From Chitinivibrionales bacterium (GTDB lineage Bacteria > Fibrobacterota > Chitinivibrionia > Chitinivibrionales > FEN-1185): a stretch of DNA of 64,000 bases. This document shows positions 5,502 through 42,857 of this stretch, piece by piece. The stretch spans positions 248,001 to 312,000 of the forward strand of contig DATJAL010000052.1 in assembly GCA_035516255.1 (NCBI GenBank), in the 5' to 3' direction. A program made the translations under genes and the position numbers. A model generated the notes under the pieces. It was given only the letters and a program-made list of their open reading frames with translations. It had not been told where the DNA came from and ran no database searches. Numbering within the stretch: the first letter of the stretch is position 1; each line of letters starts with the position of its first letter.

Positions 5502-7901
5502 TCACCGGTACTGCCTCAACATATAAATGCCTTTTGCCATGGTCAGGGCCCTGACAACCGGTTTCCCGGACATCACCAGGGATTCCCAAACTTTTTTTCC
5601 TGAAAGATCATATAATTCGATTTTCTGAATTCCCGCGCCGAGACGCGGGATAGCGACCGCGCCGCCGAGGACCGCGATTTTCTCCAGGGAACAACTTGTA
5701 AGGGTTTTTCTTTCAACCGGGGCCGTTACCCCCACGGGCTTGACCGGTCCCGTGGTGCATACCTGCTTCTTGGAAGGCACCACCATGCTGAATCCGTCAT
5801 TGAAGTTGACGGTTTTGTCGGAGATATCCGGGTTGAAGGCGCAGTAGGTGCGGGTTGTTCCTTTGTCAAAAACGGCAAAGGTGGGCGTGCTTCCGGTGAC
5901 GGAGGTGTCGAGCCTGCCGGCCGTGTTAAGGGATGAGATCTCGAGATAGCAGGCCGCCTTGGTGTTTCCGGCCTCGATGCTGGTTCCGCCGTTGTATTTC
6001 GACATGGCGGTGGCCCCGTCGGAGTAGGCGAGGAACTCGTAGAAGAGGTCGGACCACCCGCCGTCGAATCCTTCATTATAATTTAACGGGTTGTAATCGG
6101 GGTACCGGCCGTAGTACAGGTGCCCCGACGTGTTGGGCAGGAAATTGATTCCGTGAATGGCGCTGCCTGCGCCCGAGAACCAGGTGCTGTATGCGCCGCC
6201 GTTGCTCCACACCATGCCGACGCAGGTGTGGGTATATGCGGTCGGGAATGTTACATTGTCAACGTCCCACCAGTACTGCCCTATGGCGCGCGCCTCGTTG
6301 ACATACATGAAAATACCCTCGTCGCGCAGCACTTTGTTACCGGTCATGACGCCGTATAGGATAAGTCCGGCGTTGAAGTTCATGGATTCCGACGACGATT
6401 CTTGGTTGGTGCCGGTGGCAAAGCCGGTGCCGTCGGCCCAGCCGTGGCCCTCATAGGGCTCGAAATAGCCGAAGCGGCCGAACAGCGGATCGTTGTCGTC
6501 CCATGAATTCACGTCACGGATAAGCATCTGCACCATGCCGCCCCAGTTTTCCGGTTTTGCCCAGGTTGTGTCCCATTGCGCCACGCATGCAGCGGCTCTC
6601 AGATAATAGCCATAGTGGAAATGGTGATCGGTAAGGCGCGTGTCCGAGTAGTAGCACGGCGGATACCCGATAAGCCTGTTCCATGGTTTGTGATAATAAA
6701 ATTCGGGTTGACCGTCAGCGGTAAACCAGTTCTGCAGGCTTGACTTGAGGGAGGTGACGATCGCGTCCCGCTTGGCTGTGTTGCCGGCCACGTCCGCGAT
6801 CTGCGCGAGCTGCGCATATTTGCCCATGTCTTTGTTGTAGGTGCATCCGCCGGCGCCGATGGATGCGGGAATTCCTTCGCCATTGACGAGGTTCTGGAGC
6901 GTGGGCATGTCAAACCCCACGGCCGGCATTGAAACGAGTATGCCGTTGAACTTCATGGGCACGGCAAAATTCTGGCCCGCCACGGTCTTCATCACGCCGC
7001 GGGCGCTCTGGTAGGTGTAGGAGAGAAACGGACCCGGCATTTCGAGCCATTGGTGGCGGAACACGGCGAAAATCGTCCCCGATGCGGTTCCTTCCTTGGC
7101 CTCGGTGACCACGCTGAAAAACGAGGTGAGGATCGCCGACGGCTCGTCATAGTTCCAGGTCACGCGTGTGTCCTTGACAAAGGAATAGGCGTATTGCGTG
7201 AAGAACGCGAGGGTCTGCGCCGAATTGTCGGGAAGCAGGGCCACCGAAAGATAGTCTTTCCCGGAAAGCGACGATGTCATCGTCCCCGAGCCGCTCCATG
7301 TTGACCCCGTGGGGGCGAACACGGCCCAGTTGTGACCGTTGACCGTTGCCGCAACCACGCTGCCCTGGCTGTACCAGATGGTGGGAGTACCGGCAAAACT
7401 GACCTTAGCATTCCCGCCGGTCATCTTGAAATAGGTAAAAGGAATTCCCTGCGCCATGGTGGCCTCCATGGTCATGGCGCCCGAGGTCCACCTTGCAGTG
7501 ACACCAAAATGGGAATGTGCCGAAACGGGAGAAGAGGTGGCGTTCAGGCCGTCCATGCCGACGGTAAGGTCCCTGTTGTGGGAATTTGAGAACCCGCCGC
7601 CCGTGCTGACGGCGGCGCCGGGGTATCCCATGTCCAGCCCACCTGCATTTGTCTGGTAGGATATCGGATGCGCCCAAAGGGGCTGGGAGAACGAATTGTT
7701 GATGAGCGTCGCCCACCATTTTGCACAGATCACCTTCTGAGAAAAATCCGACGTTATCACCGGATTGTGGTCGGGTACGGTAAAATTACCCGAGGTAGCA
7801 TAGGATCCCAAACCTGCCTGGACCTGGGCCGAAACAGGAACATTTGTCAATAGGCAAAAAGCGCAGCTTGCAACCATGCACCACAGCTTGGTCCGTATCA
7901 T
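5502..7901 (-). CDS. Secreted GH81 endo-beta-1,3-glucanase with C-terminal sorting domain
   Basis: 799 residues, predicted to hydrolyse internal beta-1,3-glucan bonds (laminarin, curdlan, callose) outside the cell. Signal peptide 1-25 ends in VSAQ. GH81 hallmarks are the D-H-H-F-H-Y-G-Y block near residue 427, carrying the family's catalytic Asp, and N-Q-E-S-S-S-E near 502, carrying the catalytic Glu pair. They are separated by the usual W-x-D-x-D-P-L-F-G-R-F-G linker. F-R-H-Q-W near 285 is also typical. The last ~75 residues (I-E-L-Y-D-L-S-G-K-K ... K-G-I-Y-M-L-R) form a T9SS type A-like sorting domain. The start has AGGAGG seven bases upstream. It is monocistronic, divergent from the pseudopilin operon. 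Confidence 0.9.
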   Translation of the reverse strand: MIRTKLWCMVASCAFCLLTNVPVSAQVQAGLGSYATSGNFTVPDHNPVITSDFSQKVICAKWWATLINNSFSQPLWAHPISYQTNAGGLDMGYPGAAVSTGGGFSNSHNRDLTVGMDGLNATSSPVSAHSHFGVTARWTSGAMTMEATMAQGIPFTYFKMTGGNAKVSFAGTPTIWYSQGSVVAATVNGHNWAVFAPTGSTWSGSGTMTSSLSGKDYLSVALLPDNSAQTLAFFTQYAYSFVKDTRVTWNYDEPSAILTSFFSVVTEAKEGTASGTIFAVFRHQWLEMPGPFLSYTYQSARGVMKTVAGQNFAVPMKFNGILVSMPAVGFDMPTLQNLVNGEGIPASIGAGGCTYNKDMGKYAQLAQIADVAGNTAKRDAIVTSLKSSLQNWFTADGQPEFYYHKPWNRLIGYPPCYYSDTRLTDHHFHYGYYLRAAACVAQWDTTWAKPENWGGMVQMLIRDVNSWDDNDPLFGRFGYFEPYEGHGWADGTGFATGTNQESSSESMNFNAGLILYGVMTGNKVLRDEGIFMYVNEARAIGQYWWDVDNVTFPTAYTHTCVGMVWSNGGAYSTWFSGAGSAIHGINFLPNTSGHLYYGRYPDYNPLNYNEGFDGGWSDLFYEFLAYSDGATAMSKYNGGTSIEAGNTKAACYLEISSLNTAGRLDTSVTGSTPTFAVFDKGTTRTYCAFNPDISDKTVNFNDGFSMVVPSKKQVCTTGPVKPVGVTAPVERKTLTSCSLEKIAVLGGAVAIPRLGAGIQKIELYDLSGKKVWESLVMSGKPVVRALTMAKGIYMLRQYR

Positions 7902-9200: not shown

Positions 9201-9992
9201 ATGCACGGGGCAGGGAAAGAAGAAAAAAAAGGAACGGGTGGGTTTACCATAGTGGAACTCGTTATAGCAATCGCGGCGGGTACCATTGTCATTCTCGGTA
9301 TCTACCGTTTGCTTTCCTCGAGTTTGTGGAGTTATAACCTGCAAGATCAAGAGACCGATATGTACCAGAATGCGACCTATACAATAAAGAAATTAACCGA
9401 AGTGCTTTCCCAGGCAGGATCGGATCTGCCTGATTCTTTATATCCCGTGATAAGCGTGAACAGCGCCAGCGATATCATTGTGAAGACAAATGATAAAGGT
9501 GCAAAACAGATGATGAGCGCAAACCTAACTGCATCGGCAAAAATTCCGGTTGACAATGGCGCCCCTTTTGTGGGATGTGATACCATTGTTGTTGATTCGG
9601 GATTGGGATTTCTTAAATTTCCGTTCGATAGCGTTCGGGCTGCTGCTTCACCAGACACGGTTTACCTTAAATCCCCGGCCGTGGCTACGTTAAAACAATG
9701 GGACAGGGTTTTTGGCTCGTATACCGAACACTATTATGCCAGCAATTTTAATTTCTGCTACCAAGCTGACTCTGTGGTTCTTGCCGAAAACATAGATTCG
9801 ATCGCCGTAACCTTTTACGACACGGGCCACGCAACGACCACCAACTGGGACCACATGAGCACAGGGGCATTGTATGTCCGCGCGCGCACCGCGACACCGG
9901 ACAAGCTGTACAAACATCCCGTATTTCATGACGGCTACAGGAGGCTCGCGCTCACAATGGAGTTCAGGCTGAGAAACAAATTCAGATTTTAG
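9201..9992 (+). CDS. Pseudopilin (GspJ/PilW-like minor pilin)
   Basis: 263 residues. Leader ending G-T-G-G, then F-T-I-V-E-L-V-I-A-I-A-A-G-T with Glu at +5. I chose ATG 9201 because GGAG lies at 9189-9192, eight bases upstream; the TTG at 9147 would overlap the previous gene and lengthen the leader unusually. The larger globular domain, with repeated V-D-S/D-T strands and a C-terminal M-E-F-R-L-R-N-K-F strand, fits the GspJ/PilW class that caps pseudopili with H- and I-type partners. It is 25 bases after its neighbour and 13 bases before the fibro-slime gene. Confidence 0.78.
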   Translation: MHGAGKEEKKGTGGFTIVELVIAIAAGTIVILGIYRLLSSSLWSYNLQDQETDMYQNATYTIKKLTEVLSQAGSDLPDSLYPVISVNSASDIIVKTNDKGAKQMMSANLTASAKIPVDNGAPFVGCDTIVVDSGLGFLKFPFDSVRAAASPDTVYLKSPAVATLKQWDRVFGSYTEHYYASNFNFCYQADSVVLAENIDSIAVTFYDTGHATTTNWDHMSTGALYVRARTATPDKLYKHPVFHDGYRRLALTMEFRLRNKFRF

Positions 9993-10005
9993 TGGGGAGG
10001 GATCT

Positions 10006-12216
10006 ATGGAAAAAATAACGAGGTTTCTGAAAAATTCCAACGGCGTGGTCATGGTGATTTCCCTGGTCATCATGCTTGCGGTCACCGCAATCGGCATAGC
10101 CATGGTGGCCAACGCGGCGATGAGCTCCACCATCGCGAAGAATTACCGCAACGAGATCCAATCATTTTACGCGGCGGACGGACAGATGACCATGCTCTCC
10201 CAGGCCGTGATCGATTCCACCGACACCAACTGGACGCGCGTGAGTCTTTGGAGAGGGAAAAAATGCGGAAATGCCTACACTTTCGTATCGGATTCCGCCT
10301 CGTCGGTGAACGGCACCAATGTCGCTTCGTTTGCGATCGACGGCAATCAGACCACACGATGGGAGAGCACGCAGGGAGTTGACCCCCAATGGATTTGGGT
10401 CAATCTCGGAAGCTCAAAAAAAATCTATTGTGTTGCGATTGACTGGGAAAATGCCAGTGCCGCCTCATATCATCTTGACGGGTCCAACGATAAATCGACT
10501 TGGACAACTCTAAAGTCTTTATCCGGGCTAACAGGCGCCCGAACCGATTCCATCACCGGATTAAGCGGCAACTACCAATATATTCGCATTTATGGTTTAA
10601 CCCGATCGACCACTTACGGATATTCAATTTATGAAATAAGCGTTTATCCCGACACCTTGGGGATGGCCTCAAACGACACCCTCTTTCCACGCTCCTTAAT
10701 CACGATGACGGCCAGCTCCACAAACGCAGGTTCTCCCGCCAATGTCAACGACGGTAACAGCTCCACATCCTGGACAAGCAACGCGTCTGACCCTCAATGG
10801 ATATACGCCAATTGCGGCAGCCCTATTTATATCAGCAAAGTCATTATTAATTGGGCACATAACTCATCGGGCAAGAGCTATACCATAGACGGCTCCACCG
10901 ACGGCAAATACTGGACAACGATAAAATCTTTTTCAAGCACCGATACCACGAATCAGCGCCTTGATACCATTTCCGGTCTCACAGGAAGTTATCAATATAT
11001 ACGCATGAGCGGCGCCACCCGCAACGGAAGCTCGGGCTATTGCATAAATGAAATGCCCATTTATGCTTATTCGGTCGCTCCAAGGTTAGATACTACAATT
11101 TACGGCAGATACAAGGTACAATGGTCGGTCCAAATGGTTGATACCGACATGTACACCATTTCCACGCTTTCCTGGGATTCGCTGCAGAAATGGGGACAGG
11201 TTTTTAAAACGCCGCTCAAGCAATCCATTGAAAAGTTGGGCAACCTGAAGTCCATGGCGCCTTCTCAGTTGGACACAGTAAAGGTAAGGTTCTACGATTT
11301 CCATTCCGGCAGAGTGTGCCCGGAATTTGAAAATGTTCATCGTTCCGGAGTTCATAAAAACATGGTGAGTCAATACTTGGATGGTCAACGTAAACCGCAG
11401 GTGGGCACCCAACCACGCACAAACCAATATATAAAATATTGGTTCAGGGACTGGAACGGAGCCGGCGGCGGCAAGGGCGATTCAACAATTCCAATCTACC
11501 TCAATGTGGTCTCGCCATGGAAGGACACGAGCCCATGCACGGTTCTCAGGTATGATACAAAACACTTTACTGCCGCCAGGGGAAATAGTCTCAGAAGGTG
11601 GGTATACGACGGAACTCCCAAATGGGGAGCGTGTCACGTGAACGAACTTGCATGGCCCGACTCTTTATTTAAAATTGATACAACGGTAAAGAACGGCGGC
11701 ATTCTAAATGATACGGCGTTTAAAAATGCGATCGTCGACACCTTTCTTGTTTTCAATCTTTCTGATCCAACTACCGGAACCTACAGTTACGGAAACGGCG
11801 CCTTCTTCCTTTTGGATAATAAAGGTTTTGGCAAGGAGTGGTCAACAGAAAATACGGGCGTAGGTGATTCCACGTACATTTCACAACACAATTATAGCTT
11901 CACCATGTCGATGGATACAACCTTTATCATGGTACCGGGACTCAAATTTTGCTTCACCGGGGATGATGACATCTGGCTGTATCTCAATAACAGGCTCGAA
12001 ATGGACCTGGGAGGGCCGCACCAGGCCGCATCGGACACGGTGCTGGTCGACACCGTGGCGGGACTAACGAATTATCAGAAATATAATTTTGATTTTTTCT
12101 ATTGTGAGCGCCACAGCGTGAATTCCGATATCTACATCACCACAAACATGCTGGTGTTCCACAGGAAAACGTTCAATGAGCGCTCATGGCACCGCGACTA
12201 TGGGTTCACCGATTAA
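10006..12216 (+). CDS. PilX-like protein with two F5/8 type C domains and a fibro-slime domain
   Basis: 736 residues. The N-terminus (basic, N-S-N-G, then V-V-M-V-I-S-L-V-I-M-L) resembles the PilX N-terminal domain. Like PilX/GspK it lacks Glu at +5. Residues ~85-215 and ~235-355 are two discoidin/F5/8 type C modules with W-x-S/W-T-S, P-Q-W-I and Y-Q-Y-I-R-I/M landmarks; such modules usually bind glycans. A strand set at ~365-385 (Y-G-R-Y-K-V-Q-W-S-V-Q-M) looks like the pilin body resuming, so the modules may be an insertion. Residues ~427-715 match the fibro-slime (PA14-like) domain: V-R-F-Y-D-F-H, then F-C-F-T-G-D-D-D-I-W-L-Y-L-N-N. A GGGAGGG sequence precedes the ATG. Likely a pilus-tip glycan adhesin. 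Confidence 0.8.
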   Translation: MEKITRFLKNSNGVVMVISLVIMLAVTAIGIAMVANAAMSSTIAKNYRNEIQSFYAADGQMTMLSQAVIDSTDTNWTRVSLWRGKKCGNAYTFVSDSASSVNGTNVASFAIDGNQTTRWESTQGVDPQWIWVNLGSSKKIYCVAIDWENASAASYHLDGSNDKSTWTTLKSLSGLTGARTDSITGLSGNYQYIRIYGLTRSTTYGYSIYEISVYPDTLGMASNDTLFPRSLITMTASSTNAGSPANVNDGNSSTSWTSNASDPQWIYANCGSPIYISKVIINWAHNSSGKSYTIDGSTDGKYWTTIKSFSSTDTTNQRLDTISGLTGSYQYIRMSGATRNGSSGYCINEMPIYAYSVAPRLDTTIYGRYKVQWSVQMVDTDMYTISTLSWDSLQKWGQVFKTPLKQSIEKLGNLKSMAPSQLDTVKVRFYDFHSGRVCPEFENVHRSGVHKNMVSQYLDGQRKPQVGTQPRTNQYIKYWFRDWNGAGGGKGDSTIPIYLNVVSPWKDTSPCTVLRYDTKHFTAARGNSLRRWVYDGTPKWGACHVNELAWPDSLFKIDTTVKNGGILNDTAFKNAIVDTFLVFNLSDPTTGTYSYGNGAFFLLDNKGFGKEWSTENTGVGDSTYISQHNYSFTMSMDTTFIMVPGLKFCFTGDDDIWLYLNNRLEMDLGGPHQAASDTVLVDTVAGLTNYQKYNFDFFYCERHSVNSDIYITTNMLVFHRKTFNERSWHRDYGFTD

Positions 12217-12242
12217 CATGCATGCCATGTCGTTTGCTGCAC

Positions 12243-12271
12243 GGGCGTTCAACCGGACGCCCTTGCTTTTT
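12243..12271 (+). terminator. Terminator after the pseudopilin operon
   Basis: GGGCGT (12243-12248) pairs with ACGCCC (12257-12262) around an 8-nt loop, followed by TTGCTTTTT. Short stem but well placed, 26 bases after the stop. Confidence 0.55.
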
Positions 12272-12282
12272 GAGAATTCTGG

Positions 12283-13986
12283 TTATCGTTGCTCAGGTAC
12301 TTCGGTTTTCTTTTCCACGGTTTGCGCGGAAGTCTCCATACCCATGTAACGGAGCATCTCCGTAAAATATCCCAGCGCCTCCTGCCGCACATACGGAGCA
12401 CCCTTCCATTGAACCCGGATGCTGTCGGCAACCGCATCTGCGGTTTTAGGGTCAGAAAGGTCAATCGCGGGCCTCTTCGAGCCGCTGTTCTTCACAAGCA
12501 AAAACGACGAGCCGTCAGTATATTCAAGATGCCAGTCGGGATTTTCGCAAAGCCACTTGATGAGGTTCCGGTATTGCGTGAAAATGGCCGACGGAAGGAT
12601 CGCATGCGTGATGTTGAACTTTTTTTCGAGAAAGGAAAAAAGTTCCGGCGTGGCGCACACCGAAAGGTACTCGGCGAAAAACCGCGGTTGCCGGATCACC
12701 AGCCTGCCGTCGATAAACACCTTCTGGCGCGGATAGAGCTCCCAGATAAGATAGCCGCCGTACCTGATGTCGTTGAACATTTCGCCTGGGACAGGATCTG
12801 CCTTGAGATAGGCCGCGATTTTTTCGGGAAACCTGAACGGCGACAGCACCCGCCCCGGCGGGCAGGCGGCCACCACGGCGTAATGATTGATAAAGGGGAC
12901 AACAACGAGGAGCAGGGAGGCGGCCGCCACGCCCGCCGAGGCAAGGTGCCGGGCTTTTTGCGGCAAAAAGGAAAAACGGTGCAGGCCGTCGGCGTCCATC
13001 ACTATGTATCCGACAATAGGGACAACGGCGATAAAATAGAGGAGGACATTCCGCACCGCGCTCACGGCAAGAAATAAAAACCCGAGAAACAGCACCGCGT
13101 GCGCGGGCCGGATTTTTTTCCAGTTCACGGCAAACAGAGCGATTGCGGCAACGGCGGTCACCATCACCGCTGTCCGGTAGCCTGCTTCGAAACCGGTAAG
13201 CGAAAAAAGCGGGACGTTTTCCGATATGGTAAGGGAATACAGGTTCTGCGCGACCGGCGCAATGCGGGAGAATAGTTTAAACGGCAGGAGCAGGCCCGAA
13301 ATGCCGTAGGGATTTACAAGACAGGAAAGCAAGCAGAGAACTAAAACGAGGGAATGGCTGTTCCACAGGACCGATCCCGGCTTGTCCGTGGACAAAGCGG
13401 CCGCCCGCGCCGAACCGACCACCTCCTCGGCCGCATACGCCCCGATAATGAAGAGGCCGATCGGGTACAACCCTTGCGAATTTGTCCAGATCATCTGCAG
13501 CGGCACGCAAAGCCACAACCACCGTTTATTCAATCCCCGGCGAACATTCTCGAAAAGAAAGATGTACGCGGCGATGCAGAGCATAGTGATGAGCACGGGC
13601 CTTTCGCACACGAGGTACCGCGCATCGTAGAACAGCAGCGCCGAGAGAAGGCTGCAAGCCCAGGCATAAACGCCACTCCGGTATGCGAGGCATAAGAGCG
13701 TCACGGTTCCGGCAACAGCGGCGAGCTTGAAAACGATCAGTGCCTTGAGGCCGCCCAGTAAAAACAGGCCGTACACGAGAAGCTGGAACAGCCAGTGAAG
13801 GTCTATCCATCGGGGAGACGCAAGTGTAAAGGCAAACGGGTCGGTGTAGAGAAGATGCCGCTGCGCGATAATTTCCCTTCCCGCGGCCAAGTGCCAGAAG
13901 ATGTCGGTGTCGGTGATGGGGAAGTAGCAGAAAAACGCGGCAAGGCCGGCGGCCAGGAGAACGGGGAAGTATTTAATAATCTTCAT
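12283..13986 (-). CDS. Polytopic membrane protein, GT-C-like (function unknown)
   Basis: 567 residues with about ten hydrophobic segments up to ~residue 375, then a soluble C-terminal domain. The N-terminal block D-T-D-I-F-W-H-L-A-A-G-R-E, followed by D-P-F-A-F-T and W-I-D-L-H-W-L-F-Q, is the signature of a common family of uncharacterised membrane proteins. These resemble GT-C glycosyltransferases, where an Asp pair early in the first periplasmic loop is typical. The C-terminal landmarks N-D-I-R-Y-G-G-Y-L-I-W and V-F-I-D-G-R also belong to this family. A lipid-linked sugar transfer role is possible but not shown. It is a single gene converging on the pseudopilin operon, with a weak ribosome binding site. 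Confidence 0.6.
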   Translation of the reverse strand: MKIIKYFPVLLAAGLAAFFCYFPITDTDIFWHLAAGREIIAQRHLLYTDPFAFTLASPRWIDLHWLFQLLVYGLFLLGGLKALIVFKLAAVAGTVTLLCLAYRSGVYAWACSLLSALLFYDARYLVCERPVLITMLCIAAYIFLFENVRRGLNKRWLWLCVPLQMIWTNSQGLYPIGLFIIGAYAAEEVVGSARAAALSTDKPGSVLWNSHSLVLVLCLLSCLVNPYGISGLLLPFKLFSRIAPVAQNLYSLTISENVPLFSLTGFEAGYRTAVMVTAVAAIALFAVNWKKIRPAHAVLFLGFLFLAVSAVRNVLLYFIAVVPIVGYIVMDADGLHRFSFLPQKARHLASAGVAAASLLLVVVPFINHYAVVAACPPGRVLSPFRFPEKIAAYLKADPVPGEMFNDIRYGGYLIWELYPRQKVFIDGRLVIRQPRFFAEYLSVCATPELFSFLEKKFNITHAILPSAIFTQYRNLIKWLCENPDWHLEYTDGSSFLLVKNSGSKRPAIDLSDPKTADAVADSIRVQWKGAPYVRQEALGYFTEMLRYMGMETSAQTVEKKTEVPEQR

Positions 13987-34397: not shown

Positions 34398-34493
34398 TCA
34401 CCGCAAAGGCGCAAGGAACGCAGAGTGAAACAGAGTAAAAAATAAAGGATAAAAATGTTACATATCTTTGCGTCCTTCGCGTCTTTGCGGTGA
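34398..34493. repeat. Imperfect 28-bp inverted repeat between operon genes
   Basis: Left arm 34398-34425 (begins TCACCGCAAAGG) and right arm 34466-34493 (ends TTTGCGGTGA) match at 23 of 28 positions around a 40-base centre. Similar 'accgcaaagacgc' repeats are widespread extragenic elements in environmental genomes (general knowledge). It fills the gap before the aldolase gene. Confidence 0.65.
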
Positions 34494-34520
34494 ATCTTTT
34501 TCTACAAGCAAGGAGCAGCG

Positions 34521-35171: not shown

Positions 35172-35240
35172 TGTCATTCCCGCGAAAGCGGGAATCCATG
35201 TCTCTGTTGTTGACCGGACTCCCGCTTCTGCGGGAGTGAC
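35172..35240. repeat. REP-like pair of GC palindromes
   Basis: TCATTCCCGCGAAAGCGGGA (35173-35192) and a second palindrome, ACTCCCGCTTCTGCGGGAGT (35219-35238), flank ~25 bases. The first is a very common extragenic repeat family in bacteria. A run of CAACTCGT / CGTCAAC units follows (35268-35300). Together they fill the gap between the aldolase and kinase genes. Confidence 0.6.
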
Positions 35241-35322
35241 AATAATTTTGGATCAGATTATAACGCAACTCGTTTATTCGTCAACTCGTCTACCCGTCAA
35301 CATTTATAAAGGAGAATATGCA

Positions 35323-36420
35323 ATGCCCCTCACCATCAAACCAAAATCACAATGCAAATGGGACCAAGTTTCCCTCGGTGAAATCATGCTGCGCCTGGAT
35401 CCCGGCGAAGGCCGCATAAAGTGCGCGCGCGAATTCAAGGTGTGGGAGGGCGGCGGCGAATACAACGTGGCGCGCGGGCTCAAGCGCTGCTTCGGCATGA
35501 ACACCTCGGTGGTCACCGCGATCGCGGAGAACGACGTGGGATACCTTCTGCTCGACCTGATTTACCAGGGCGGCGTTGACACATCGCACATCAAATGGGC
35601 GCCATTCGACGGCATCGGCCGCAATGTGCGCGTGGGGCTCAACTTTACCGAGCGCGGCTTCGGCGTGCGCGCGGCGCTCGGCGTGTCGGACCGCGGCAAT
35701 ACCGCCGCGTCCCAACTTAAAACGGGCGACATCGATTGGAACAAAATTTTCAAGGAAGAGGGCGCGCGATGGTTCCACTGCGGCGGCATCTTCGCCGCGC
35801 TTTCGTCCACAACGGCCGGCGTGGTGATCGAGGCGATGAAAGCGGCAAGGGCCGGCGGCACCGTGATCAGCTACGACCTTAACTTCAGGGAATCGCTGTG
35901 GAAATCCATCGGCGGCAAGGCGAAGTCGCGGGAGGTGAACGCCGAGATCGCGAAATACGTTGACGTGATGATCGGCAACGAGGAGGACTTCACGGCCGCG
36001 CTCGGGTTCGAGGTGGAGGGCGTTGATGAAAACCTTTCGGGACTCGACCCGGCGAGCTTCAAGAAAATGATTGAAAAGGTCGTGAAGGAATACCCGAACT
36101 TCAAGGCGGTCGCCACTACGCTGCGCGACGCGAAGACCGCGTCGGTCAACGACTGGGCCGCCGTGCTCTGGTGCGACGGAAAATTCTTTGAGTCGAGAAA
36201 ATACCCCGACCTTGCCATCTGCGACCGCATTGGCGGCGGCGACAGTTTTGCCTCGGGATGCATCTACGGGTTCCTTGCCGGCAAAGACCCGCAGTACTGC
36301 GTTGACTGCGGCGCGGCGCACGGCGCGCACGCCATGACCACGCCCGGAGATACCTCCACGGCGACGCTGAAGGAAGTGGAGAAGATAATGAGGGGCGGGA
36401 GCGCGAGGGTGCAGAGGTAA
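35323..36420 (+). CDS. kdgK: PfkB-family sugar kinase, probably 2-keto-3-deoxygluconate kinase
   Basis: 365 residues from ATG 35323, chosen because AAAGGAG lies at 35308-35314; an upstream ATG at 35236 falls in repeat DNA. The PfkB fold is shown by the G-G-G-E-Y-N-V-A-R-G-L N-terminal sugar-binding strand, a Y-D-L-N-F-R-E-S-L-W middle motif with N-E-E-D-F, and the C-terminal D-R-I-G-G-G-D-S-F-A-S-G anion-hole motif with the catalytic Asp near 306. Directly after KDPG aldolase, phosphorylation of 2-keto-3-deoxygluconate to KDPG is the natural role. Other PfkB substrates cannot be excluded. Confidence 0.82.
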   Translation: MPLTIKPKSQCKWDQVSLGEIMLRLDPGEGRIKCAREFKVWEGGGEYNVARGLKRCFGMNTSVVTAIAENDVGYLLLDLIYQGGVDTSHIKWAPFDGIGRNVRVGLNFTERGFGVRAALGVSDRGNTAASQLKTGDIDWNKIFKEEGARWFHCGGIFAALSSTTAGVVIEAMKAARAGGTVISYDLNFRESLWKSIGGKAKSREVNAEIAKYVDVMIGNEEDFTAALGFEVEGVDENLSGLDPASFKKMIEKVVKEYPNFKAVATTLRDAKTASVNDWAAVLWCDGKFFESRKYPDLAICDRIGGGDSFASGCIYGFLAGKDPQYCVDCGAAHGAHAMTTPGDTSTATLKEVEKIMRGGSARVQR

Positions 36421-36544: not shown

Positions 36545-37060
36545 ATGTCCCTCAAACCCTTCCTCATCCTCGGCATCGGAAACCTGCTGCGCACCGACGA
36601 CGGCGTGGGCGTCCATGTCGTCAACCTGCTCAACGATTCCGGAAAGCTTCCCGACTTCGCCGAGGCCGTCGACGCGGAAACCAGCGGGCTCGACCTTCCC
36701 TCACTCCTTCAGGGACGCGAGCGGGTGATCGTGGTGGATGCGCTCGAAGCTGAGGAAGAGGAGCCGGGGAGCATATTCAGGTTTGATGCGCGCCGCCTCT
36801 CTTCATCCGCGCCCCATGCCGTTTCACTGCATGAAACGGGAATCGTCGAGGCGCTCCGGGCGCTCGAAGTGCTCGGCGAGAAGCCGGAAACGGAAATCAT
36901 CGGCATTGTGCCCCATGATGCGGAATCCATGGGAATCGAACCCACGGAACCCGTGCTCGCCGCGATTCCAAAGGTACTTCGGCTGGTTTTTCAGGCCGTC
37001 TCCGATTACCAGAAATCCGACTCCGGAATCGCGATAGGCGAGGACGCGCCCCTGCAATGA
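36545..37060 (+). CDS. [NiFe] hydrogenase maturation protease (HyaD/HybD type)
   Basis: 171 residues. It removes the C-terminal peptide of the hydrogenase large subunit after nickel insertion. The N-terminal G-I-G-N-L-L-R-T-D-D-G-V-G (10-22) is the family signature. The nickel-sensing acid and His are seen as D-A-E-T-S-G, near 41-46, and S-L-H-E-T-G, near 97-102. It is unusual in coming first in the operon. Its stop overlaps the small-subunit ATG (ATGA at 37057-37060), so the two are translationally coupled. No Shine-Dalgarno precedes the start; TATAAA lies at 36533-36538. Confidence 0.88.
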   Translation: MSLKPFLILGIGNLLRTDDGVGVHVVNLLNDSGKLPDFAEAVDAETSGLDLPSLLQGRERVIVVDALEAEEEEPGSIFRFDARRLSSSAPHAVSLHETGIVEALRALEVLGEKPETEIIGIVPHDAESMGIEPTEPVLAAIPKVLRLVFQAVSDYQKSDSGIAIGEDAPLQ

Positions 37061-37971
37061 ACAGGCGGGAATTCATCCGCATTATGGGCGGTGCCAGCGC
37101 GCTCCTTGCTTTTCCCGAGGTCATTCTCGCCGGCACCAAGCTCACGCTGGGAAAGGCCTCATCGCGCACCCCGGTAATATGGCTCCAGGGACAGTCGTGC
37201 TCCGGCGACTCGGTGTCGCTGCTCAACGCGGGCGACCCGGACATCGCCACGCTCGTCACCAACCGCATCAGCCTGCATTTCCACCAGACCCTTTCCACCG
37301 CCACGGGCGACACCGCCATAAACATCCTGCTTAAAACGCTTGACGAAGGAAAAAAAGACTACGTGCTCGTGGTGGAGGGCTCCATCCCGCAGAAATCGGC
37401 AACGTACTGCACCATCGGCGAGGTGAACGGCGCGCCGCGCGGCGTGAGGGAATGGGTGGCGCTGCTGGCGAAAAATGCGAAGGCCGTGGTCGCCGTGGGA
37501 ACCTGCGCCGCCTACGGCTGCATTCCGGGCGCGGCGCTGCGGTCGGGCGGGGAGAATCCCACGGGCGCGACATCGGTGTGGGGCGTTTTGCCCATTGCAA
37601 AGCGGATCAACATCCCGGGCTGCCCGGCGCACCCGGACTGGATCATCGGCAGCCTGGTCTATTTGATAATGGGGAAGCGGCTCAAGCTTGACGTGTACGG
37701 AAGGCCGCTAGCGTATTTCGGCAGGACGGTGCATGACAAATGCGAGCACCTTGCCGAGTATAAGAAAAACAAGTTCGCGCGTTCGTGGGGCGATGAGGGC
37801 TGCCTGTTCCAGCTCGGCTGCCTGGGCATCGACACCAACTGCGACATCCCCACGCGCAAATGGCTCGGCGTCAACTCGTGCACGGGCTGCGGCGCTGGAT
37901 GCATCGGCTGCACCGAACCGGTGTTTCCGGATTACGGGGCCAGGGGACTGTTCCCGATGAAGAAGGCATAA
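37057..37971 (+). CDS. [NiFe] hydrogenase small subunit, Tat-exported, with a Cys-to-Asp proximal ligand
   Basis: 304 residues. Twin-arginine signal N-R-R-E-F-I-R-I-M-G exports the folded dimer to the periplasm. Proximal-cluster region: Q-S-C48-S-G-D51, where most group 1 enzymes have C-x2-C; the second ligand is Asp, coded GAC at 37207-37209. The other expected proximal Cys are in G-T-C-A-A-Y-G and P-G-C-P-A-H-P-D-W. Distal and medial clusters are served by H-D-K-C, G-C-L-F-Q-L-G-C and C-T-G-C-G-A-G-C-I-G-C. There is no C-terminal membrane anchor and no cytochrome b gene nearby, so electrons must leave by another route, plausibly the multiheme cytochromes downstream. Confidence 0.9.
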   Translation: MNRREFIRIMGGASALLAFPEVILAGTKLTLGKASSRTPVIWLQGQSCSGDSVSLLNAGDPDIATLVTNRISLHFHQTLSTATGDTAINILLKTLDEGKKDYVLVVEGSIPQKSATYCTIGEVNGAPRGVREWVALLAKNAKAVVAVGTCAAYGCIPGAALRSGGENPTGATSVWGVLPIAKRINIPGCPAHPDWIIGSLVYLIMGKRLKLDVYGRPLAYFGRTVHDKCEHLAEYKKNKFARSWGDEGCLFQLGCLGIDTNCDIPTRKWLGVNSCTGCGAGCIGCTEPVFPDYGARGLFPMKKA

Positions 37972-38104
37972 AATTCACCTCAGAGCCACTGAGAACTCAG
38001 AGAAAAAAACTGAGTGAATAGTGAAGAGTGCAGAGTGAAGAGAAATGAGAAGAATGTTCTTGTTGACCGCTGACTGGTGACTGCTAACCGCTTAAAAAGG
38101 TACT
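37972..38104. repeat. Low-complexity repeat mosaic between hydrogenase subunit genes
   Basis: 133 bases built of CAGAG-type units (37979-38040: ctcagagccactgag, then gtgaagagtgcagag) and a GACTGGTGACTGCT segment (38078-38090). Comparable short repeats also fill other gaps of the 31-38 kb region. AAGG before 38105 serves as ribosome binding site for the next gene. Confidence 0.45.
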
Positions 38105-39670
38105 ATGGCCAAAGTAGTCATAGATCCAATTTCCCGCATCGAAGGGCATTTGTCCGTCGAGCTCGAGATTGACGCCGGCAGGGTGAAGTCGGCGCGCACG
38201 CGCGGGGACATGTTCCGCGGCTTCGAGCAGATCCTGCTCGGCCGCAACCCGTTCGACGCGGTGCAGATCGCGCAGCGGATCTGCGGCGTGTGCCCGGTGT
38301 CGCACGGCATCGAATCGGCGCGCTGCGTGGAGAACGCCTGCGGCGTTACTCCGAACAAGAACGGAAGGCTGCTGCGCAACCTCGCGCTCGCGGGCAACTA
38401 CCTGCAGTCGCACATCCTGCATTTCTACCATCTGGCCGCCCTCGATTTCGTCGACATCACCGCGATACTCAAGTATTCCGGCAGCGACGGCAAACTCAAC
38501 TATGTCAAGGCCTGGGCGCAGAGCGAGCTCGCCGAGAAGAAATCCGGCATCGACGCATTGACCGCCTGTTCGCCGTTCCTGCCGCGTTACGAAGGCGGGC
38601 TCTACATCAAGGACACCGACCTGAACATCGCGGCGATCGCGCATTATGTCAAGGCATTCGACATGCGCATGAAGGCGCACCGGCTCGTGGCCATTTTCGC
38701 GGGACGGATCCCGCACGCCATCGGGCTCGTGCCGGGCGGCATCACGAAAGTGCCCGACAAGGCCGCGCTCGCCGAGGCGGGACGGATCCTGGCGGAAATA
38801 TCCGATTTTGTCAATAATGCCTATGTCCCGGACGTCGTTGCCGTGGCCAGGACGTTCCCGCAATACTGCGACGCGGGCCGGTTCGGTGATTTCCTTGCCT
38901 ACGGCGAATTTCCCGACGGAAACGAGATCGCCGACCTTTATTTCCCGCGGGGCATCGTGTCGGCCGGAAAAAAGGAGGCATTTGACGCCGCGAAAATCAC
39001 GGAGCAGGTCCTGTATTCCCGGTATTCCTCTCCGTCAAACCTTCATCCCTCGCAGGGACAAACCGTGAGCCAACCCGAAAAAACCGGCGCCTATACATGG
39101 CTCAAGGCGCCACGGTATCTGGGCAGGCCCATGGAAGTGGGACCGCTGGCGCGCGTCATGGTGGCCTACCTTTCCGGCCATGCCGACATCAAGAGGGAAG
39201 TTGACGGCCTCGCGTCGGCGCTGGGAATCGGGCTTCCCCAGCTGCAGTCGGCGATTGGGCGCCACGCGGCGCGGGCCATAGAAGCGAAGCTGCTGTGCAA
39301 AAAGATCCCGGGCTGGATCGACCAGCTTGACGCAGGCGACAAGCCGCGCAGCGAATGCGCGATACCGGAAAGCGGCGAGGGCGCGGGCCTCGGCGAGGCC
39401 GCGCGCGGCGCGCTCGGCCACTGGATTTCCGTGAAGAACGGAACGATAGCGCGATACCAGTGTGTTGTGCCCACCACGTGGAACGCGTCGCCGCGCGACG
39501 ACAACGGCACGCCCGGTCCCATGGAGCAGGCGCTCGTGGGCGCGCCGGTACTCGACGATAAAAATCCCATCGAGCCGGCGCGGATCGTCCGCACCTTTGA
39601 CCCGTGCCTCGCCTGCGCCATCCACAGCGTGAAGGCCGGCAAGGAGATCGCGGGGTACCGGGTATGCTGA
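38105..39670 (+). CDS. [NiFe] hydrogenase large subunit
   Basis: 521 residues; carries the NiFe(CN)2CO site that splits or forms H2. L1 motif R-I-C60-G-V-C63-P-V-S-H67 and L2 motif D-P-C501-L-A-C504-A-I-H507 give the four cysteine ligands. A 14-residue tail after His507 (S-V-K-A-G ... R-V-C) is the peptide removed by the protease encoded at 36545. The N-terminal D-P-I-S-R-I-E-G-H is typical of group 1 uptake-type enzymes. It should be carried through Tat together with the small subunit. Its stop overlaps the next ATG (ATGCTGA at 39664), so the barrel gene is translationally coupled. Confidence 0.92.
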   Translation: MAKVVIDPISRIEGHLSVELEIDAGRVKSARTRGDMFRGFEQILLGRNPFDAVQIAQRICGVCPVSHGIESARCVENACGVTPNKNGRLLRNLALAGNYLQSHILHFYHLAALDFVDITAILKYSGSDGKLNYVKAWAQSELAEKKSGIDALTACSPFLPRYEGGLYIKDTDLNIAAIAHYVKAFDMRMKAHRLVAIFAGRIPHAIGLVPGGITKVPDKAALAEAGRILAEISDFVNNAYVPDVVAVARTFPQYCDAGRFGDFLAYGEFPDGNEIADLYFPRGIVSAGKKEAFDAAKITEQVLYSRYSSPSNLHPSQGQTVSQPEKTGAYTWLKAPRYLGRPMEVGPLARVMVAYLSGHADIKREVDGLASALGIGLPQLQSAIGRHAARAIEAKLLCKKIPGWIDQLDAGDKPRSECAIPESGEGAGLGEAARGALGHWISVKNGTIARYQCVVPTTWNASPRDDNGTPGPMEQALVGAPVLDDKNPIEPARIVRTFDPCLACAIHSVKAGKEIAGYRVC

Positions 39671-40971
39671 AAAACATGCTTTTCTCCCGCGGCCCTTTAC
39701 GCACCGGAATCATCCTGTGCACGGTGCTGTCGCTGTTGGGCGCAACGGGCGTTTTCGCCCTGTCGCTTGACCTGTACCACGGCAACATCTATTATGCCCG
39801 CGACGACCGGGTCGACACGGTGTCCAGCGCAACGGCGCGGCGCAACAATTTCTATGAAGACGTCGGCCTGACGCTCCGCAATCCCGGCGCCACCGGCATG
39901 TCGTTCTCGTCCGACGTGTGCATGACAAACGACAAGGCCTCCGGTTTCGCGAAGCAGTACGAGATACGGTCCACGAGCCTCGACTGGAACAACGACGCAA
40001 CGGGCCTGGGCATGAGCCTCGGCCGCCAGTTCGTGAACACCTTTGCCCGCGATGCCGGATACGTTGACGGCCTCAGCTTTTCCTACGACGCTGGAAAGCT
40101 TTTCTCGCTTTCGGCGTTCGCCGGCACCGCCAATCCGTCCCGCTATTCCGACAGCATTCTGAGCTTGGACCCGAAGGCGGCGACGGCCGGCTTCTACGGA
40201 AATTTACGTATTGTAAAGGGCACCATGCTGGGCCTCGGCGTCGCGGCCGACAAGCAGGACTCGGCGGCAGGAAGGTTGTACCGTTTCGCGGCGAGCGGGA
40301 GTTCCGACATCGCGCATACGGTCGAGGTGCGCGGCCACGCGCGCTTCGAGGCGACAACGAAAACGCTGGACGACTATTACCTCTCGGCCCGCCTGATCCG
40401 CTGGGACATGGTACAGTTCGGCCTGCATGCCGCCGGCCGCGCCAGCCAGATCGATTCGGTTGAATATTACGAGCGTATTTTCCTAAACCGCTATAACGAG
40501 GGCGGATTTTTTATCGGGTTATATCTTATGAAAAATTTATCGCTCTATGGCACGTATTCGCTGCGGAATTTCGGAGAAGGCGCCGACCATCTTGCCGACT
40601 GCCGCATTCTGTTCGAGGGCCTGTCGGTGGTGCTCAATGCCAATACGGGCGTGCACGGCACCATGTACGAGATCACTCCGGGATATACCTTTTCGTATGC
40701 GCAACTATTTGATCTCGGCGCAGCGTTCCAATATGATCAATACAAGACGGAGTTGTGGCCGGATTGGCGCAAGGCATACACGGCCGAGGTCTTCATGCGC
40801 TGGTTTGTGCCCTGGCTCACGCCGTTAGTGAGCCTTGTTCTCGAGCCGGAAGTGCAATATCTCTCGAACGATTATTACAAAAAAGACTTCAGGGTATTGT
40901 TCATGTCGCGTTTCAACTTTCACGGGTTCTGGCAATCGGGACAGAAACAGGTAGCGGAAAATGGGCAATAG
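39664..40971 (+). CDS. Outer-membrane beta-barrel protein coupled to the hydrogenase
   Basis: 435 residues from ATG 39664, chosen because it overlaps the large-subunit stop and starts the signal peptide (ending V-F-A-L-S). The mature protein is a run of amphipathic strands (L-D-L-Y-H-G-N-I-Y-Y, G-M-S-L-G-R-Q-F-V-N-T-F, V-D-G-L-S-F-S-Y-D, F-M-S-R-F-N-F), predicting a 16-20-strand barrel. It is smaller than MtrB-type conduit porins (~700 residues) and lacks their N-terminal CxxC. Position between the hydrogenase and two multiheme cytochromes, with overlaps on both sides, argues that it houses or docks them in the outer membrane. That role is inferred. Confidence 0.7.
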   Translation: MLKNMLFSRGPLRTGIILCTVLSLLGATGVFALSLDLYHGNIYYARDDRVDTVSSATARRNNFYEDVGLTLRNPGATGMSFSSDVCMTNDKASGFAKQYEIRSTSLDWNNDATGLGMSLGRQFVNTFARDAGYVDGLSFSYDAGKLFSLSAFAGTANPSRYSDSILSLDPKAATAGFYGNLRIVKGTMLGLGVAADKQDSAAGRLYRFAASGSSDIAHTVEVRGHARFEATTKTLDDYYLSARLIRWDMVQFGLHAAGRASQIDSVEYYERIFLNRYNEGGFFIGLYLMKNLSLYGTYSLRNFGEGADHLADCRILFEGLSVVLNANTGVHGTMYEITPGYTFSYAQLFDLGAAFQYDQYKTELWPDWRKAYTAEVFMRWFVPWLTPLVSLVLEPEVQYLSNDYYKKDFRVLFMSRFNFHGFWQSGQKQVAENGQ

Positions 40972-41875
40972 GATGATGAGCCGTTCCCGGATAAAAACTT
41001 GCTGGTGCAATTCGCGATGGCTGTGCTTTTTACTGCTTGCGTTCGCCGCGCCGTCCGTGAATGCGCAGCTCAATGTGTTTTTTCCGGACACCATCAAGAC
41101 CGACACCGTGACGATCACGCCTGCCGATTCTTTCGTGACTGCCGCAGACACAGGTATCAATCACCGCGCCGGATGGGAGCTCGGGCCCGTGGGCATGCCG
41201 CACCGCGTCCACGAAAAATGGGGCGTCACGTGCATCACCTGCCACCACCGGAAAAACAACGACGAGCGGATCAAGCAGTGCGCGCATTGCCACAAGGGAA
41301 TCGCGGGCATGGAGAACCTTCACAACAAATGCGGGCAGTGCCACCTTTACCGCGCCATGGACATGACCTGCTCCAAGTGCCATTCGGTCCCGCAAAAAAC
41401 CATGGGCGGCCAGCTCAAGAAAATAAAGTTCTCTCATGTAAAACACTATGCCCGGCAGAAGGACTGCAAGTTCTGCCACGGCGAGCCGCCGCGCCAGGCA
41501 TGGCTTTCGGGCAACAACTATCCCGCGATGAAAACATGCCTCACGTGCCACGACGACCGCAAATCCTCGGGACAGTGCGCGGTGTGCCACAACGATGTCG
41601 CGCAGCTCAAGCCCGCGTCGCACGACTACCGCTGGGTGGGGCGCTACGGCCACGGCCTCGAGGCCAACTACAACAAACAGGAATGCCTGCAGTGCCACGC
41701 GAAGCGGGAATGCGACCAGTGCCACCTCGGCCAGACCTCGTGCCGCGTCCACCCGCCCGGATACCGGTATACGCACGGGCTTGACGTGAGGATGGGAATT
41801 GTCAACTGCGCCATGTGCCATGACACGAGACAATCGTGCAGCAAATGCCACGAGAACAGGTATGGGATACAATGA
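40961..41875 (+). CDS. Periplasmic 11-heme c-type cytochrome
   Basis: 304 residues. A long signal peptide (core W-L-C-F-L-L-L-A-F, ending V-N-A-Q) precedes eleven CXXCH sites (CITCH, CAHCH, CGQCH, CSKCH, CKFCH, CLTCH, CAVCH, CLQCH, CDQCH, CAMCH, CSKCH) in about 220 residues. That density implies a tightly packed heme wire. Additional His residues between motifs can serve as distal ligands. Its ATG lies inside the end of the barrel gene, and its stop overlaps the next cytochrome start. Likely takes electrons from, or gives them to, the hydrogenase in the periplasm. Starts at 40973 or 40976 are also possible. Confidence 0.88.
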   Translation: MGNRMMSRSRIKTCWCNSRWLCFLLLAFAAPSVNAQLNVFFPDTIKTDTVTITPADSFVTAADTGINHRAGWELGPVGMPHRVHEKWGVTCITCHHRKNNDERIKQCAHCHKGIAGMENLHNKCGQCHLYRAMDMTCSKCHSVPQKTMGGQLKKIKFSHVKHYARQKDCKFCHGEPPRQAWLSGNNYPAMKTCLTCHDDRKSSGQCAVCHNDVAQLKPASHDYRWVGRYGHGLEANYNKQECLQCHAKRECDQCHLGQTSCRVHPPGYRYTHGLDVRMGIVNCAMCHDTRQSCSKCHENRYGIQ

Positions 41876-42762
41876 ATACCTTATTAAAAATTTTTACTGC
41901 CGGGCTGTTGCTTGCAGCGCTTTCCTGCACCGAGAAGGGGAACGAGCCGGTGGTGTCGGCCGAAACCTGCGGCATCTGCCACGGCCTGCCTCCCAATGAC
42001 AGCAATCATGCGATATACTACAGCGGCGGGCCCAGAAAACAACAGTGTTCCATCTGCCATATGGGATATTCCGCAGATTCTTCGACAGGGCAATATTCCG
42101 TTAACAGCGCCACTCACATGAACGGTAAAATAGACGGTCCATCGATTGCTTCCTGCACACAATGCCATGAGCTACCGCCTCAGGACGAAGAACATCTGTA
42201 TCATGTCGATTCGCTGCATTACAAGTGTTCTTATTGTCACGCCGGATATTCCGTCGATCCGGGTTCGGGAAACTTCGGCATCAGCGGGCAGCTTCACCTG
42301 AACGGCGTTGCCGACGTGATTTTCTCAGCGCCCTGGAACGACAGTGGCCGCGCCGCCTACGATGCCGGCCTCAAACAATGCAGCAACGTGTATTGCCACG
42401 GCGCGATTCCGCAGGGCACGTACGCCTCCATCCATTGGAACTTGGGAGATACGGTGCACGGAGACTGCAGGCTCTGCCACGATCTGAGCGCGACCGCCCC
42501 CGGCATTTATGCAAAGCATTACGGGCATTCGCGGATGGGGCTCACGGTCAACGGCGTCAAGCAATTGGGATCAAACGTGCAATATTGCTTCTACTGCCAT
42601 GGAGACAAACTTGAAGACACGCTGTACAGCGTTGGCTTGAAAAGGGTCGACCCGGTCCACCATATCAACGGCGTTTTTGAACCGGCCTCTTGCAGGACCT
42701 GCCATGCGTGGACGACGTGGGACGAGTATGTGGCCGCCAATCCGGGGGTAACGCCGTACTAA
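41872..42762 (+). CDS. Eight-heme lipoprotein cytochrome, probable surface or outer-membrane cytochrome
   Basis: 296 residues from ATG 41872, which overlaps the previous stop as ATGA. Signal with lipobox A-L-S-C, so it is lipid-anchored. Heme sites: CGICH, CSICH, CTQCH, CSYCH, the longer CSNVYCH (CX4CH, 42379-42399), CRLCH, CFYCH, CRTCH. The C-x-N-x-Y-C-H-G block is a hallmark of Geobacter-type outer-surface cytochromes (GSu C4xC domain), which work in extracellular electron transfer. A repeated M-G/A-G-Y-S-x-D-x-x-x-G unit near 72-80 and 135-143 suggests internal duplication. As the last gene of the hydrogenase operon it may be the extracellular end of a conduit. Confidence 0.85.
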   Translation: MNTLLKIFTAGLLLAALSCTEKGNEPVVSAETCGICHGLPPNDSNHAIYYSGGPRKQQCSICHMGYSADSSTGQYSVNSATHMNGKIDGPSIASCTQCHELPPQDEEHLYHVDSLHYKCSYCHAGYSVDPGSGNFGISGQLHLNGVADVIFSAPWNDSGRAAYDAGLKQCSNVYCHGAIPQGTYASIHWNLGDTVHGDCRLCHDLSATAPGIYAKHYGHSRMGLTVNGVKQLGSNVQYCFYCHGDKLEDTLYSVGLKRVDPVHHINGVFEPASCRTCHAWTTWDEYVAANPGVTPY

Positions 42763-42825
42763 AAAGTCATTGCGGAAGTGGTGCTGGGCCTGGCGCCCAC
42801 GCGCGGAAAAAGGATTTTTAAACGG

Positions 42826-42857
42826 AAAAGCCGCCTGGTTTCAGGCGGCTTTTTTTA
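42826..42857. terminator. Strong bidirectional terminator
   Basis: Perfect 12-bp stem AAAAGCCGCCTG (42826-42837) with CAGGCGGCTTTT (42842-42853), GTTT loop and T-run. It ends the hydrogenase-cytochrome operon and can also end the converging GH105 gene. Confidence 0.9.

Follow-up and report, generated by a model that had tools for sequence, protein, structure and literature searches.

Genes of the hydrogenase and cytochrome operon

The window analysed here is a 64,000-nucleotide stretch (positions 248,001 to 312,000 of contig DATJAL010000052.1, assembly GCA_035516255.1) from an uncultured Fibrobacterota bacterium of the Chitinivibrionales. It carries six genes on the + strand, between positions 36545 and 42762: a hydrogenase maturation protease, the small and large subunits of a [NiFe] hydrogenase, a predicted outer-membrane beta-barrel, an 11-heme cytochrome (C11) and an 8-heme lipoprotein cytochrome (C8). 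All six had been recognized in the initial annotation, and we confirmed each of them at its place. No cytochrome b gene was found in the cluster.

The protease (36545–37060, 171 aa) belonged to the HycI/HybD family (PF01750, E 7e-20; TIGR00072, 123 bits, both above cut-off). The small subunit gene (37057–37971) overlapped it by four bases (ATGA). The small subunit had a Tat signal (NRREFIR) and matched PF01058, PF14720 and TIGR00391 (208 bits). Its closest solved relative was the Desulfovibrio NiFeSe small subunit 2wpn (E 2e-55). It ended at residue 304, just after the Pfam C-terminal domain, and thus had no transmembrane anchor. The proximal-cluster motif was CxxD instead of CxxC, in the window and in one other genome (G031) only. 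Three further Fibrobacterota genomes (G003, G035 and G036) and the Spirochaetota sequences inspected had Cys at this position. This is a ligand change within the family and does not remove the enzyme from group 1.

A spacer of 133 bases (37972–38104) separated the small from the large subunit gene. It measured 6 bases in G003, about 100 in G035 and 184 in G031. The large subunit (38105–39670) had the Ni ligands RICGVC and DPCLAC, and was recognized by PF00374 (E 2e-146) and NF033181 (626 bits, cut-off 600). The Tat signal, the Ni ligands and the NF033181 match place the enzyme among the group 1 periplasmic [NiFe] hydrogenases, in the NiFeSe-like branch. It is not itself a [NiFeSe] hydrogenase: the DPCLAC motif is encoded with a TGC codon, no selenocysteine was present, and the score was below the HysA exception cut-off.

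The barrel gene (39664–40971, ATG at 39664) overlapped the large subunit gene by 7 bases and encoded 435 aa, with a signal peptide. It gave no Pfam or NCBIfam hit. AlphaFold2 predicted 22 strands with moderate confidence (mean pLDDT 67, pTM 0.58), the model resting on only three sequences. Foldseek hits against the PDB were generic outer-membrane barrels, without singling out MtrB among the best matches, and support only an outer-membrane barrel. The small size of the barrel was the main doubt of the initial annotation. We do not consider it a real objection, because the accepted Geobacter conduit proteins ExtB, ExtE and ExtI were predicted to have 18, 21 and 21 strands (PMC6148476).

C11 (40961–41875) overlapped the barrel gene by 11 bases. 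It had a signal peptide, exactly 11 CxxCH motifs, c3/c7 family hits, and 23 His, enough for bis-His ligation of all 11 hemes. C8 (41872–42762) overlapped C11 by four bases and had a lipobox (ALSC, +2 Thr). Its eight heme motifs were seven CxxCH and one CxxxxCH, so that its description as an 8-heme protein depends on counting the latter, which Pfam and NCBIfam recognise as a Geobacter-type heme motif. C8 matched TIGR01904 (46.8 bits, cut-off 27) and PF09698 (over cut-off), and the MtrC/MtrF-like domain PF22113 at its cut-off. By sequence, C11 and C8 fit the multiheme periplasmic c-type cytochrome and the outer-membrane lipoprotein with redox cofactors of porin-cytochrome conduits (PMC6148476). 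C8 is, however, small, and varied from 5 to 8 heme motifs among relatives.

The operon was closed by an intrinsic terminator at 42824–42855 (+), a 14-pair hairpin followed by a T run (−22.6 kcal/mol, z −5.8). It was found by folding and missed by a terminator scan, probably because its stem absorbs several of the T's. A promoter scan was uninformative (4 hits, 2.3 expected).

Composition of the 11-heme cytochrome

To exclude that similarities were only due to the heme motifs, we compared the two parts of C11 with these motifs masked. The N-part (41051–41404), with four hemes, was homologous to the stand-alone cytochrome c3 encoded beside the sister hydrogenase in Spirochaetota (median 43.7 bits, against 12–16 for unrelated control cytochromes). 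It included the class III cytochrome c match, with its best stretch at C11 aa 74–145 (PF02085, 34.6 bits, cut-off 22.9). In 17 of the 20 best Spirochaetota loci the hydrogenase was next to this c3. The C-part (41405–41872), with seven hemes, was homologous to periplasmic cytochromes of hydrogenase-free barrel/cytochrome conduits (median 63.9 bits, against 14–19 for unrelated controls). The N-part clearly matched only hydrogenase-linked c3, and the C-part only conduit cytochromes. C11 is therefore a chimera, in which a c3 is not a free periplasmic protein but is fused to a conduit-type seven-heme core. This fusion, missed by the initial annotation, is the best evidence that hydrogenase and conduit work together. 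An AlphaFold2 model of C11 (pLDDT 42, without hemes) was not used.

Distribution in Fibrobacterota and related loci

The six-gene order was intact in three Fibrobacterota MAGs (G000, G031 and G003). In G035 the large subunit ran into the barrel at a contig end and the rest continued at the start of another contig, and G036 had the same pieces. Of 168 genomes of the phylum, five had this hydrogenase, and all five carried the barrel, C11 and C8. The C11 N-part was found at over 90 bits in Fibrobacterota only in those five genomes. The hydrogenase of another genome, G018 (39% identity), was of a different branch, with no conduit genes on its short 4.3-kb contig. A chance neighbourhood or a chimeric assembly remains conceivable because all relatives are MAGs, but is very unlikely. 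Start and stop codons overlap, independent MAGs of three families share the order or its pieces, and the protein fusion is present in all five genomes.

Homologues of the barrel were found in 10 other genomes of the phylum. The triplet of barrel, periplasmic cytochrome and outer cytochrome also occurred without the hydrogenase in other Fibrobacterota, as expected of a modular conduit. The initial annotation had held that its reading would fail if barrel and cytochromes lacked the hydrogenase in most genomes. This was the case only at the level of distant homologues (6 of 11 genomes), whose cytochromes lack the c3 part, while all five close homologues come with the hydrogenase. Hydrogenase-free clusters of Fibrobacterota (G021–G023, G032, G153, G167, G166) and Spirochaetota had a homologous seven-heme core and the same kind of triplet, with a homologous barrel in Fibrobacterota and two weak profile hits for it in Spirochaetota. 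Their periplasmic cytochromes had another or no N-terminal domain.

In the hydrogenase tree this Fibrobacterota set formed a clade (98/96), sister to Spirochaetota enzymes (100/97) which sit beside a stand-alone c3, some with Qrc quinone-reductase genes. This arrangement is the counterpart of the periplasmic hydrogenase–TpIc3–Qrc pathway of sulfate reducers, in which electrons go to menaquinone (PMC5539420). In the genome carrying the window, 96.6% complete, we found no C11 paralogue and no NrfD protein (PF03916), hence no Qrc-type route, although other soluble periplasmic routes to quinone, for example through a b-type cytochrome, were not excluded. The genome encoded HypD/HypF, ResB/CcsA-type cytochrome c assembly proteins, and other [NiFe] hydrogenases, two group-3-like and one group-4-like. 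A genome-wide count of CxxCH-like DNA words was too noisy to be used, the control being almost as frequent.

Inferred electron route

Together, these results support the interpretation of the initial annotation, a porin-cytochrome conduit with its own periplasmic [NiFe] hydrogenase, in which we have fairly good confidence. We infer that the distal Fe-S cluster of the hydrogenase docks on the c3 part of C11, and that electrons run along its hemes through the barrel lumen to C8, probably at the surface, and from there to an outside acceptor such as Fe(III), humics or a partner cell. The quinone pool would be bypassed, and protons from H2 released in the periplasm. Complex formation, surface exposure of C8, activity and direction are inferred from sequence alone, from MAGs of uncultured organisms, and only five genomes carry the set.

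The usual direction is probably outward (H2 oxidation). Nothing in the sequence fixes it, and both group 1 [NiFe] enzymes and multiheme wires are reversible in principle. The conduit could thus take electrons from a partner cell, reduced minerals or metal, with the hydrogenase making H2 in the periplasm, as an overflow or as a donor for the cell. We regard this as unlikely, since the family is known mainly for uptake, the Spirochaetota sisters show an uptake arrangement, and the other hydrogenases of the genome could make H2 inside. It is equally unlikely that C11 is a periplasmic electron store also feeding an inner-membrane quinone reductase, with the barrel and C8 serving another task and being only co-transcribed. 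The sister enzymes feed c3 and probably Qrc, and one operon does not prove one complex. Against this stand the lack of an NrfD hit, the fusion of the c3 to the conduit-type core, and the persistence of barrel, periplasmic and outer cytochromes together in hydrogenase-free genomes.

Shewanella MtrCAB and Geobacter OmbB-OmaB-OmcB and ExtABCD/ExtEFG (PMC6148476, PMC4245776) likewise combine a barrel, a periplasmic multiheme and an outer lipoprotein multiheme in one operon. The present operon differs in its dedicated exported hydrogenase and in the c3 domain at the N-terminus of its periplasmic cytochrome. The initial annotation knew of no such conduit built onto a periplasmic [NiFe] hydrogenase in Fibrobacterota, which was not contradicted in the literature examined. 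A partial precedent is Geobacter sulfurreducens extEFG, which shares a transcription unit with a Hox-type [NiFe] hydrogenase (PMC6148476). That enzyme is described as Hox-like bidirectional, likely a cytoplasmic type. Here the hydrogenase is a Tat-exported group 1 enzyme, on the conduit's side of the inner membrane.

More tentatively, the complex may be a self-contained H2:extracellular-acceptor oxidoreductase at the outer membrane, independent of the quinone pool. H2 made in the cytoplasm by the other hydrogenases would diffuse out and be burned against an outside acceptor, a hydrogen cycling with the outside world as terminal acceptor, created by fusing the hydrogenase's cytochrome c3 into the conduit.

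Known conduits are usually thought to be fed from the quinone pool through inner-membrane and periplasmic carriers. Here, an enzyme that splits H2 seems to be joined directly to the conduit, and the fusion protein records how this may have happened, the acceptor of a quinone-linked hydrogenase having been grafted onto a conduit cytochrome. If true, Fibrobacterota of fens and lake sediments could trade H2 electrons with minerals, humics or partner cells without an inner-membrane respiratory step.

Gene content and occurrence of the operon

The six ORFs proposed by the initial annotation (36545–42762), encoding a protease, the small and large subunits of a [NiFe] hydrogenase, a barrel, an 11-heme cytochrome (C11) and an 8-heme lipoprotein cytochrome (C8), were found exactly at the positions it gave. 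The protease overlapped the small subunit by four bases, and the large subunit, barrel, C11 and C8 overlapped by 7, 11 and 4 bases, while 133 bases separated the small from the large subunit. The barrel started at ATG 39664 and had 435 aa. C11 had 11 CxxCH motifs, and C8 had seven CxxCH and one CxxxxCH, a Geobacter-type motif. The unit was closed by a 14-pair hairpin with a U run (42824–42855, −22.6 kcal/mol, z −5.8).

The small subunit (37057–37971) had a Tat motif and ended right after its Fe-S domain, and thus had no anchor. Its proximal Fe-S cluster motif (residues 48–51) was CxxD (SCSGD) in the window and in the genus-mate G031, but CxxC in three other Fibrobacterota genomes with this hydrogenase (G003, G035 and G036) and in the Spirochaetota sequences read. 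Most relatives had an LQGC-like lipobox after the Tat signal, suggesting a lipid-anchored hydrogenase, whereas the window and G031 lacked the Cys. The large subunit scored above the cut-off of NF033181 and had Cys, not Sec, at the nickel site.

We searched for the barrel in 168 genomes of the phylum, and 11 had a homologue. The hydrogenase, at 58% identity or more, was found in G000 (the genome of the window), G031, G003 and G035, plus a fragment in G036. G000, G031 and G003 had the same six genes in the same order. In G035 the large subunit ran into the N-terminus of the barrel at the end of one contig, and the rest of the barrel, C11 and C8 opened another; G036 had the same pieces on two short contigs. 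Therefore, all five hydrogenase genomes, from three families of one order, carried the conduit genes. A PfkB-type sugar kinase gene (35236–36420 in the window), labeled by eye, lay next to the cluster in G000, G031 and G003, either upstream or downstream, which hints at a link to sugar-acid catabolism or at old synteny. The spacer between the small and large subunit genes of G031 (10913–11096 of the fetched locus L046) carried short dispersed repeats, which also occurred at 34398–34422 and 34465–34497 of the window, within 34398–34497.

Conduit genes without the hydrogenase and related hydrogenases without the conduit

Six further Fibrobacterota genomes (G021–G023, G032, G153 and G167) had a barrel, a periplasmic multiheme and an outer multiheme cytochrome in the same kind of order, twice in G153, but no hydrogenase. 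In G032, a conduit of the same family followed a set of membrane and multiheme genes on one contig, and on another it was followed by a 19-heme ORF: the same module with another likely donor. A further Fibrobacterota genome, G166, had the pieces in another layout. In Spirochaetota, 10 of 393 genomes had a cytochrome with the seven-heme core of C11. Most of the fetched loci had a 430–490-residue ORF beside it, a putative barrel, and none had a hydrogenase nearby. The cytochromes of these candidate conduits had 11 to 21 hemes. Two of the putative barrels matched the profile of the Fibrobacterota barrel, but most did not. This is the pattern expected for a modular porin-cytochrome conduit.

A scan of 84,980 species genomes with the small subunit found its nearest relatives outside Fibrobacterota in eight Spirochaetota MAGs. 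There, the gene order was a small three- or four-heme c3-like lipoprotein, protease, small subunit and large subunit, with no barrel. Some loci continued with genes whose best NCBIfam hits were QrcA, QrcB, QrcC and QrcD (menaquinone reductase), below the strict cut-offs. In several Spirochaetota loci a HypF-like gene (motif GIVQGVGFRPF) lay next to the c3-hydrogenase operon, on the other strand. In the large-subunit tree, the four Fibrobacterota proteins formed one clade (98/96), sister to the eight from Spirochaetota (100/97), with a joint support of 98/98.

Chimeric composition of the 11-heme cytochrome

The main new result is that C11 is a chimera. BLAST comparisons with all CxxCH motifs masked gave a double dissociation. 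The N-part (aa 31 to about 148, four hemes) scored a median of 43.7 bits against the Spirochaetota hydrogenase c3, compared with 12–16 bits for QrcA-like, conduit, C8 and other control cytochromes, although the lowest c3 pairs, with a three-heme member, fell to 18.5. The C-part (about aa 149–304, seven hemes) scored 63.9 bits against cytochromes of hydrogenase-free conduits, compared with 14–19 for unrelated controls. A non-heme stretch (DTVTIT...D) was shared with the c3. Pfam placed aa 74–145 in class III cytochrome c, the usual acceptor of periplasmic hydrogenases (PMC5539420). C11 had 23 His, and that of G031 had 22, enough for two per heme, as expected of a pure electron carrier.

In Fibrobacterota, the N-part was found at over 90 bits only in the five hydrogenase genomes, and in Spirochaetota 17 of the 20 best loci had this hydrogenase next to it. 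In G166, a stand-alone four-heme c3 (59 bits) and a stand-alone seven-heme cytochrome lay side by side with a barrel and a 12-heme lipoprotein (9527–13193 of locus L133), without hydrogenase. These are the same parts, four plus seven hemes, in an unfused state. Another fusion of this c3 family, away from a hydrogenase, was found in genome G174 (6644–7597 of locus L135), as a 12-heme lipoprotein which begins with the c3 domain and matches C11 elsewhere too.

Predicted barrel and inferred electron path

The small size of the barrel was the main doubt of the initial annotation. AlphaFold2 on three sequences predicted 22 strands (mean pLDDT 67), with outer-membrane barrels as the nearest folds. 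Standard barrel geometry gives a backbone diameter of about 40 Å for 22 strands and 47 Å for 26, as MtrB probably has. Accepted Geobacter conduit proteins were predicted to have 18 to 21 strands (PMC6148476). Size is thus no objection, although insertion of C11 is not shown.

With respect to prior systems, Geobacter extEFG is part of a transcription unit with a Hox-like hydrogenase (PMC6148476), and therefore a conduit plus a hydrogenase in one operon is not wholly new. An exported group 1 hydrogenase with a c3-conduit fusion was not found in our searches, which covered few subscription papers and did not extend to other hydrogenase branches.

In the G000 genome (96.6% complete) we found no second C11 and no NrfD. 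The genome encoded ResB/CcsA-type cytochrome c assembly genes, HypD and HypF, two hydrogenases like group 3 and one like group 4, indicating that H2 can plausibly be made inside the cell. The parts, their order, conservation and co-occurrence, and the fusion are supported by the sequences, while the electron path is inferred. It would lead from the hydrogenase to the c3 part, to the seven-heme core, through the barrel to C8 and to an outside acceptor, with no quinone step, but its direction cannot be read from the sequence. Electrons leaving this way do not cross the inner membrane. Energy would come from proton release in the periplasm if the H2 was made inside (hydrogen cycling), or the system may simply be an electron sink.
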